DNA of 64,000 bases from Halobaculum rubrum (GTDB taxonomy: Archaea > Halobacteriota > Halobacteria > Halobacteriales > Haloferacaceae): contig NZ_CP082284.1 of NCBI RefSeq assembly GCF_019880225.1, forward strand, positions 1,426,001 through 1,490,000, read 5' to 3'. The position numbers were made by a program, and so were the translations under genes. The first letter of the stretch is position 1. Every line of letters begins with the position of its first letter. Below, piece by piece: positions 15,699 to 19,218 of this stretch. The notes below the pieces were generated by a model, which was given only the letters and a program-made list of their open reading frames with translations, did not search any database and was not told the origin of the DNA.

Positions 15699-16283
15699 AT
15701 GGTAGACCCCGTGACTATCGGGTTCGGCGCGGGCCTCGTGTTGGTCTTCGTCGCGCTGCACGTCGCCCGCGGTACCGGCTGGGAGGCCACCGCGGACATC
15801 TCCGAGGAGGTCATCGAGCGGCGGGCCTCCACCGTCGAGGAGACGGAGTTCCCCGAACCGGGGAGCCGCGCTATCGGGGGCGGAAGCGCCCCCGCGGGCG
15901 CGGTCACAGCCGGCGAGGAGGGCGAACTGGAGGAGGGCGCGGCGGCCGAGGAGTCGTCGTCCGGCCCCGGCGATATCCCGGAAGACGAGATCGAGCACTT
16001 CGAGGTCGAGTTCGCGAAGGAGGGCGACACGATCGAGATCGCCAACAACGAGACGGTTCTGGAGGCCGGCGAGGACGAGGGCTGGGATATGCCCTACGCC
16101 TGCCGGCAGGGCCAGTGTGTCTCGTGCGCCGGACAGATCACGTCCGGCGGCAACTCCGAGGAGTTCGTCGAACACGACAACCAGCAGATGCTCGACGACG
16201 CCGAACTCGACGAGGGGTACACCCTCACCTGTGTCGCGTACCCCCGCGGGGACTTCACGATCGAGACCGGCGAGGCGCCGTAG
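15699..16283 (+). CDS. 2Fe-2S ferredoxin with N-terminal membrane anchor
   Basis: The 194-residue protein starts with a hydrophobic helix (about residues 5-22, VTIGFGAGLVLVFVALHVA). A Glu/Ala-rich linker follows, then a plant-type ferredoxin domain with CRQGQCVSC and a distant Cys in LTCVAY that together ligate a [2Fe-2S] cluster. It likely delivers electrons at the cytoplasmic face of the membrane; the partner is unknown. The ATG at 15699 is chosen because the upstream frame is in the gnd gene. It follows gnd by 97 bases and may share its transcript. Confidence 0.87.
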   Translation: MVDPVTIGFGAGLVLVFVALHVARGTGWEATADISEEVIERRASTVEETEFPEPGSRAIGGGSAPAGAVTAGEEGELEEGAAAEESSSGPGDIPEDEIEHFEVEFAKEGDTIEIANNETVLEAGEDEGWDMPYACRQGQCVSCAGQITSGGNSEEFVEHDNQQMLDDAELDEGYTLTCVAYPRGDFTIETGEAP

Positions 16284-17964: not shown

Positions 17965-18399
17965 GGACGACTCGACGGTCGCCGGCGGTTTCAACCCACG
18001 CCTGGCGGCGACGCGTTCGAGCGATCCGCCCGGCGGGCCCCTCGTCGTCGGCCCGCGGGTCCCACGGCGGGTCGAGGGTCACGCGGGAGGCGCTGGACGC
18101 CCGGCGAGAACCGCCCCGATCGAGGAAATCGCCCCCACGAGATGCGCGTGTTCGCCGATCGCGGCGCGGCTACCCGCTCCGACGGACTCACCGCACGGTC
18201 ACCGTATTTTCGCGTTGTCGCTCGCCGTATTATTGTTCTTAATACACACGTTCAAATGTGATGGACGGCCGATCTGACCGGAGTATCCACGATCTCTCGC
18301 AGCTACGGCCGCTTAACGCTACTATTACTGGTATGTGTGGTTCCTATACATATGACATCTGCGCAACACTTATAAAATTGCGCTTTTGAGACAATAGTA
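17965..18399. promoter_or_regulatory. 435-base intergenic region; AT-rich promoter of the HiPIP gene
   Basis: No gene is seen. The right end is markedly AT-rich compared with the surroundings. CTTATAAAATT at about 18369-18379 is a strong TATA box centred 27 bases before the ATG at 18400. An imperfect repeat TATGT...ACATA flanks a 12-base spacer at about 18334-18355 and may be a regulatory site. Confidence 0.55.
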
Positions 18400-19218
18400 A
18401 TGATCGATACCCTACTATCGGGCGACGCGTCGTCCTACGACATGTGGAGTCGGCGGAACTACCTCGTCGCGACCGTCGGTATCGCGGCGGTAAGTGGCTG
18501 TACCGGCGACGGCGGCGGCGAGGCGACGGAGCCCACCGCCGGCGCCGAGACCGAAACGGAGCCGACGGGGACTCAGGAGGAGGGAGGGGAGACGGAGGAG
18601 GAACTCCCCGAGGGCGTCTCCGAGGACGAGTTCGAACGTGGTCCCGTTCCGGACGTCTACCTGTCAGCGACATCGCTCGGCAACGAAACGCGCAACCCGG
18701 ACGAACTGAACACGAAAGCGGACGTCGGCTTCTCCGAGTTCGACGAGGCGGTGGAGAACGCGGCCCACCAGCCGGGAACGTGCTGTGCAAACTGCGCCGA
18801 CTTCGTTCCGGACAAGAACGGGGACGGATTCGGCGCCTGCGCGGAGGTCGAGGGATACATCGGTGGCGAGGACTGGTGTACGATCTACGAGTCGCTGCCC
18901 GAGCCGTCGGTCCCCGCGGGGATGTCCGAGGACGACCTGGCGACGGCGGCGGTGCCGGAGGCGTACCGCACGGCCAACTCGGCGGGCGGCGAGAAGCGGA
19001 CTCCCGACGACCTCCTGGCACAAGCCGACGTGAACCTCACGGAGTCGGTCGAAGCGATCGCCGAGGGGACCGCGATGCCGGGGCAGTCCTGCGGCAACTG
19101 TGCGGAGTTCATCCCGGACCGGAACGGCGACGGCTGGGGCGCCTGCGCGAAAGTCGAGGGGTACATCGCGGCGGAGGACTGGTGTAGCGTCTGGGAACAC
19201 ATCACCGAGGAACTGTGA
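18400..19218 (+). CDS. Tat-exported lipoprotein with two HiPIP-type iron-sulfur domains
   Basis: The protein carries two high-potential iron-sulfur protein domains in tandem, each with four cysteines: CANCADFVPDKNGDGFGAC...DWC and CGNCAEFIPDRNGDGWGAC...DWC. They should act as extracytoplasmic one-electron carriers. The signal is a Tat lipobox type: SRRNYLVATVGIAAVSGC. A Glu/Thr-rich linker follows. The TATA box spacing favours a leaderless start at 18400; an ATG at 18442 directly before the twin-arginine is the alternative and gives 258 residues. Electron partners are not encoded nearby. Confidence 0.88.
   Translation: MIDTLLSGDASSYDMWSRRNYLVATVGIAAVSGCTGDGGGEATEPTAGAETETEPTGTQEEGGETEEELPEGVSEDEFERGPVPDVYLSATSLGNETRNPDELNTKADVGFSEFDEAVENAAHQPGTCCANCADFVPDKNGDGFGACAEVEGYIGGEDWCTIYESLPEPSVPAGMSEDDLATAAVPEAYRTANSAGGEKRTPDDLLAQADVNLTESVEAIAEGTAMPGQSCGNCAEFIPDRNGDGWGACAKVEGYIAAEDWCSVWEHITEEL

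Follow-up and report, generated by a model that had tools for sequence, protein, structure and literature searches.

The window analysed here, a stretch of 64,000 nucleotides from Halobaculum rubrum, contains on its forward strand an open reading frame of 272 amino acids (18400..19218, +) that encodes a putative lipoprotein with two domains of the high-potential iron-sulfur protein (HiPIP) family. The GC content of the frame at the three codon positions is 66/51/86%. A TATA-like box, TTATAAAA (18370..18377, +), was read from the upstream sequence and presumably acts in transcription initiation; its centre lies around 27 bases 5′ of the ATG, which makes a leaderless mRNA likely. The 60 bases upstream of the gene are 65% AT compared with 31% for the window, in agreement with the AT-rich upstream region described in an earlier note on this DNA. 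Seventeen residues precede the twin arginines of the encoded protein; after these come a hydrophobic core and the lipobox AVSGC, then an acidic linker that leads into two cysteine sets of HiPIP type. The twin-arginine (R18R19) to lipobox segment, which ends in the presumably lipidated Cys34, occupies positions 18451..18501 (+). It was read by eye, and an alignment of five tandem proteins showed W16, R18, R19, Y21, L22, S32, G33 and C34 to be invariant. Between R19 and C34 there are 14 residues, within the 12–21 residues that a passage of PMC2945643 gives as the range from twin arginine to lipobox Cys in haloarchaeal Tat lipoproteins, so that twin arginine, hydrophobic core and lipobox Cys are all found at the published spacing. 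At the level of the signal, export by Tat as a lipoprotein, as previously claimed, is thus borne out. The acidic low-complexity linker that leads from the lipid anchor to the first domain (18502..18639, +) varies among the five aligned proteins, save near its end. The first (18640..18897, +) and second (18949..19203, +) HiPIP domains are separated by a Pro-containing spacer (18898..18948, +) that is conserved in the alignments, a hint that the domains adopt a specific orientation towards each other.

Assignment of both domains to the HiPIP family comes from several comparisons. The only Pfam family found in the protein was PF01355 (HiPIP), which matched it with an E-value of 1.1e-10 and 42.1 bits, reported as one stretch. 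When the genome was searched with the same family, the second domain (31.9 bits) and the first domain (23 bits) each passed the cut-off of 22 bits separately, and no HiPIP match outside this frame was obtained in the host genome, which is 97% complete. The cysteines are arranged as C129-x2-C132-x14-C147-x12-C160 and C231-x2-C234-x14-C249-x12-C262, 102 residues apart, and the pattern C..C(8-20)C(8-20)C..[WYF] occurs in a single stop-to-stop frame of the window, this one, where it is found twice at that same distance. Two profiles, built separately on 17 first domains and on 17 second domains, all taken from the window and 16 of 20 named loci of the same full-length tandem form (hereafter, type A), both matched solved HiPIPs, with 3h31 as the best (5.6e-5 and 2.7e-6, respectively). 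In the printed alignments, which for the first domain include 3h31, 1hpi and 2hip, the ligand Cys of both domains line up with those of solved HiPIPs, and the four ligands are invariant in 17/17 first and 17/17 second domains. The order of the cysteines and the WC..[WY] end of both domains also correspond to the HiPIP layout. These results substantiate the earlier claim of two complete HiPIP cysteine sets. Compared with the solved members of PF01355 (3h31, 2hip, 1pih, 1hpi, 1cku), the window protein shares the four-Cys set, the Pfam match in each half and a Tat signal; it differs from them in having two domains per chain and a lipid anchor on an acidic linker, and in being archaeal. It also carries a fifth Cys in its first domain, C128 (18781-18783), immediately N-terminal to the first ligand, which is kept in 29 of the 30 distinct type-A ORFs (the exception being L086).

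A further difference concerns the Tyr that is conserved near the HiPIP cluster and considered important for it, as a supporting rather than a defining feature. Neither domain of the tandem protein has this residue. Phe111 in the first domain and Leu213 in the second stand opposite a Tyr of 1hpi, and in the alignment to 2hip, which is shifted by one position, no Tyr is found opposite either. Together with the lower score of the first domain, these substitutions could indicate that a single domain holds a working cluster while the other serves only in structure or docking, an arrangement that we consider improbable because the four ligands are invariant in both domains. It is far less probable still, to the point of being hardly credible, that the cysteines are ligands of zinc or some other metal, or that the match is due to chance. 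This reading draws on the lack of a confident structure model and runs against the HiPIP profile matches of both halves, the match of each half to solved HiPIPs and the HiPIP-like cysteine order and WC..[WY] end. An AlphaFold model of the two domains (22 rows) reached a mean pLDDT of 39, too poor to place the cysteines or to gauge the distance between the clusters, which should be no more than about 14 Å for electron tunnelling from one to the other. The model of the second domain (43 rows; mean pLDDT 61) was likewise too poor to place the cysteines, and fold searches with it yielded nothing in Foldseek (E <= 0.001) or VIA (Z >= 2).

Surveying domain number across haloarchaea, as the earlier note had proposed, showed that the tandem form recurs. 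Using a profile of five tandem proteins (E <= 6e-120), type A was detected in 24 of the 391 genomes of the class, distributed over the families f1, f3 and f4, whereas within the host genus it was present in only 2 of 11 sampled genomes. Two of these 24 genomes (G075 and G199) had no match in a plain Pfam search. PF01355 itself matches 84 of the 391 genomes, and HiPIPs are therefore not rare in haloarchaea. In a sample of the phylum that includes Halobacteria, 12 of 374 genomes had a HiPIP match; eleven of them are Halobacteria already counted among the 84, and the twelfth match carries two stop codons. Among 32 named loci, 20 are type A (L032-L051; Halolamina, Natronomonas, Natrinema, Haloterrigena, Haloarchaeobius, Salinigranum, Halobellus and Halorubellus, among other genera), one is another tandem from Haloferax (L052) and 11 are Haloferax loci with one cysteine set (L053-L063). 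The 20 named loci and the 24 genomes show that the tandem is neither unique to one genome nor a product of misassembly. Single-domain HiPIPs of haloarchaea bear the annotation 'high-potential iron-sulfur protein' in 7 of 11 matched plasmid records. A search of the open-licence PMC literature returned no paper on HiPIPs in haloarchaea and none on tandem HiPIPs, the combination of 'HiPIP' and 'tandem' being judged by titles; the one paper that mentions HiPIP together with halophilic archaea or Haloferax volcanii deals with Tat export in bacteria.

The history of the duplication was addressed with a tree of 93 HiPIP domains, which is built on few alignment columns, leaves many forks open and includes 10 of the 11 Haloferax singles and 7 of 15 HiPIPs linked to an iron-sulfur gene (see below). 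In this tree, 21 first domains form one clade (96/98) and 21 second domains form another (100/99), which indicates one old duplication that preceded the split of the type-A genera. The singles nearest to type A are those of Haloferax (L053-L063 and L110). The six domains of the three Haloferax tandems (L052, which is the same locus as L097; L098; and L099) constitute a clade of their own (100/94), within which the two domains of L098 are sisters. The Haloferax tandem, too, combines a Tat-lipobox signal with two HiPIP domains in a single chain. It differs from the window protein not only in its clade but also in the spacing of the cysteine sets, which is 119 or 114 instead of 102, and in the identity between domains, which is 84-95% in the three Haloferax proteins and 40-53% in type A (48% in the window). 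The Haloferax form was found in at least three genomes (G261, G304, G078), a lower bound since the count covers only part of the long ORFs with a single match. Its separate clade and high inter-domain identity argue against a single origin for all tandem HiPIPs, which we reject. Tandem HiPIPs thus seem to have arisen at least twice, and the Haloferax tandem is apparently separate from, and more recent than, type A. Gene conversion in Haloferax could raise the identity between domains and so sharpen the contrast; the separate clade and the spacing stand in either case. The fact that the two type-A domains have been kept distinct since their duplication suggests that they are not redundant and probably have different potentials or partners, and argues for a division of work between them. 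That a second lineage also made a tandem is another point against only one domain being functional.

Comparison of the 32 named loci and the window revealed no neighbour of the tandem gene that recurs across genera, although small genes may have been missed because the ORFs were chosen by length and acidity. Instead, the blocks around tandem and other HiPIP genes follow taxonomy. The window and 12 Haloferax loci have in common an aminopeptidase gene (12/12), a Fer2 gene (12/12) and gnd (11/12), with the HiPIP on the other flank. No COX1 and no cytochrome b match was obtained in the window. The previous statement that no cognate oxidase or cytochrome is nearby therefore holds for these two families, and has to be qualified by the presence of a Fer2 ferredoxin gene. 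This gene, at 15699-16283, encodes a 2Fe-2S ferredoxin with an apparent N-terminal membrane helix, seen by eye, and forms a block with gnd and the aminopeptidase gene. In three Halolamina loci (L032, L043, L044), the tandem gene is divergent from a gene similar to cysteine desulfurases, behind which a SufU-like gene is located (L032:7986-9760; Pfam Aminotran_5 and NifU_N in L032). This arrangement, as well as the conserved extra Cys of the first domain, would fit a sensor of redox state or Fe-S supply, or a buffer against oxidative stress, rather than a respiratory carrier. We give this possibility little weight, as SufS/SufU-like neighbours were confined to the Halolamina loci, HiPIP is the one Pfam family found in the protein and the signal points to a location outside the cytoplasm.

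Regarding the respiratory complexes from which such a protein might receive electrons, neither co-occurrence nor linkage marks the tandem form as the dedicated carrier of a bc or of an Fe-S/NrfD complex. With PF00033 cytochrome b as a proxy for the bc complex, 16 of the 24 type-A genomes were positive versus 276 of the 367 others (p = 0.34), and a family of Fe-S proteins similar to DsrO and QrcC was found in 11 of the 24 (p = 0.27), with no enrichment in either case. All 24 genomes hold cytochrome b or the Fe-S family, which says little considering that only 4 of the 391 genomes have neither. The host has one cytochrome b match, three strong COX1 matches plus one under the cut-off, nine matches to halocyanin-type copper-binding domains and no NrfD match. 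A halocyanin-type domain is found around 0.8 kb from cytochrome b (G000:C1:550386-552012), and an ORF with two such domains precedes COX1 by approximately 1 kb (G000:C1:2571243-2574287). This proximity suggests that halocyanin, which is named in a passage of PMC8305020 as the one-electron carrier of haloarchaea, may already cover the classical step, with the HiPIP as an additional carrier.

Relatives of the tandem protein provide a broader context. Haloarchaeal HiPIPs with a single domain share with it the Tat-lipobox signal and the HiPIP domain; unlike it, they have one domain and are either neighbours of an Fe-S gene, COX genes or a metal ATPase gene or are fused to NosL or a cupredoxin. For example, the HiPIP of a Haloferax mediterranei plasmid lies directly 3′ of a gene for a heavy-metal P-type ATPase (L094:9002-12243). 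In L120:9646-10410 (+), a Tat-lipobox signal, a HiPIP above the Pfam cut-off and a cupredoxin-like domain (Copper-bind, E 0.0017, just under the cut-off) are joined in one ORF a few kb from COX genes. Fusions of HiPIP to NosL were identified in L019, with both domains by Pfam, and by eye in L003, L023 and L027. In addition, a NosL-annotated gene with a HiPIP match is located among SCO, TauE, TusA and DsrE genes on a Haloarcula plasmid (L095:8881-9702). The NosL fusions and the gene context on the Haloarcula plasmid, along with the patchy distribution and the variable neighbours of the tandem form, leave a modest probability that the protein serves a special route other than the main oxygen chain, such as denitrification, copper or sulfur enzymes, or exchange with outside substrates as a surface wire. 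Against this, the NosL fusions sit on another HiPIP branch, and inspection by eye of the ORF starts around the tandem gene revealed no denitrification gene, no sulfur gene and none for a multihaem protein.

One subfamily of single-domain HiPIPs, from family f4, adjoins a gene for an Fe-S protein (L117-L122, L124-L126, L137, L138) whose nearest names in NCBIfam are DsrO and QrcC, both below their cut-offs. The Fe-S gene was beside the HiPIP in 9 of 10 loci viewed together, the tenth being L123. Similarly, all of the 15 best-scoring Fe-S genes (15/15) sit 443-587 bases from a HiPIP match; the linkage is partly by construction, since the profile (A3) was built from 7 loci selected for adjoining a HiPIP, and the 15 comprise these 7 rows, two genomes seen before (G386, G370) and six fresh ones (G356, G295, G101, G057, G043, G150). 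Among the 11 linked loci, NrfD was found beside the Fe-S gene in three (L124, L125, L138) and COX genes in two (L120, L126); elsewhere, NrfD adjoins a second Fe-S copy. Neither NrfD nor COX genes were seen in L123. L125 and L138 have the same gene order (HiPIP, small membrane protein, Fe-S protein, NrfD-like protein, small membrane protein), and L124 is alike except that the last gene was not seen (NrfD was assigned by Pfam in L125, and the COX genes of L120 were Pfam-tested).

Across the 391 genomes, the Fe-S family and cytochrome b show an almost complementary distribution: 95 genomes have only the former, 253 only the latter, 39 both and 4 neither (p 3e-53, inflated by relatedness). The Fe-S-positive set comprises the 134 genomes with any relative at E <= 1e-80, a set that probably includes paralogues of other function, above all in the 39 genomes that also have cytochrome b. 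By our own reading, the Fe-S-only genomes belong to four families, mostly f4. In hand-picked samples of checked membership, NrfD was present in 20/20 Fe-S-only and 4/20 cytochrome-b-only genomes, and the gap from Fe-S to NrfD ranged from 198 to 801 bases in the 12 pairs compared. These data make the DsrO/QrcC-like Fe-S family a candidate substitute for complex III. Passages of two papers call haloarchaeal quinol oxidation without a bc complex unresolved (PMC3403918, PMC8305020), and for natronoarchaea part of another (PMC6176080) proposes quinol oxidases, a different way round. In Rhodothermus, according to a passage of PMC5928083, electron transfer from alternative complex III (ACIII) to HiPIP is established; there the HiPIP acts downstream of a quinol oxidoreductase, the same role as proposed here. 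Unlike Rhodothermus, the host of the tandem gene gave a match to cytochrome b but none to NrfD, and nothing similar to ACIII was found in the ORFs beside the tandem gene.

Taken together, these observations can be accommodated in a tentative scheme, one we think rather less likely than not, in which haloarchaea would have two kinds of extracytoplasmic one-electron carrier, the halocyanins and, based on iron, the HiPIP lipoproteins. One or more groups lacking cytochrome b would use the Fe-S protein and NrfD to oxidise menaquinol and pass electrons via HiPIP to a haem-copper oxidase, with halocyanin fulfilling this function elsewhere; the tandems, evolved at least twice, would be the two-centre version. 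We rate this scheme lower because the Fe-S profile is partly circular and because HiPIPs are not more frequent in genomes lacking cytochrome b (23/95 Fe-S-only versus 60/253 cytochrome-b-only genomes), most Fe-S-only genomes having no HiPIP match.

For the tandem protein itself, the match of both halves to PF01355 and to solved HiPIPs, the invariant ligands and the conservation of the form make it probable that it is an electron carrier with two [4Fe-4S] clusters. The high-potential [4Fe-4S]3+/2+ couple of HiPIPs covers about +50 to +500 mV. Folding and cluster uptake would take place in the cytoplasm, followed by Tat export of the cluster-loaded protein, and Cys34 would then anchor it in the outer leaflet, with the acidic linker of about 46 residues as a tether. 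Possible electron donors are a quinol-oxidising complex, which in the host would be of cytochrome b type, and halocyanins; possible acceptors are halocyanins, haem-copper oxidases and further enzymes outside the cytoplasm. A function in electron transfer is favoured by the family context, namely the fusion of HiPIP to a cupredoxin, the Fe-S-linked subfamily and the COX neighbours. The variable neighbourhood, the even distribution with respect to both complexes, the halocyanin-type domains near cytochrome b and COX1 in the host and the presence in only two of the 11 sampled genomes of the genus count against this explanation. The modelling, which yielded no usable fold, was given no weight in either direction. 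On balance, the chances of a respiratory route are about even, and the explanation that combines a two-cluster, lipid-anchored carrier with such a route is the one we moderately favour. The interpretation in the earlier note is supported in part: a carrier with two clusters is likely, while a wire on the cell surface and high expression from a strong promoter are conjectural.

In conclusion, the tandem-HiPIP lipoprotein is a real, little-studied variant of a known electron carrier. Since tandem HiPIPs appear to have arisen at least twice, the two lineages can be compared to learn what is gained by a second cluster. Moreover, the family context offers a testable proposal for menaquinol oxidation in haloarchaea that lack complex III: if true, the route from Fe-S/NrfD to HiPIP would fill the menaquinol-oxidation step to which the passages in PMC3403918 and PMC8305020 refer.
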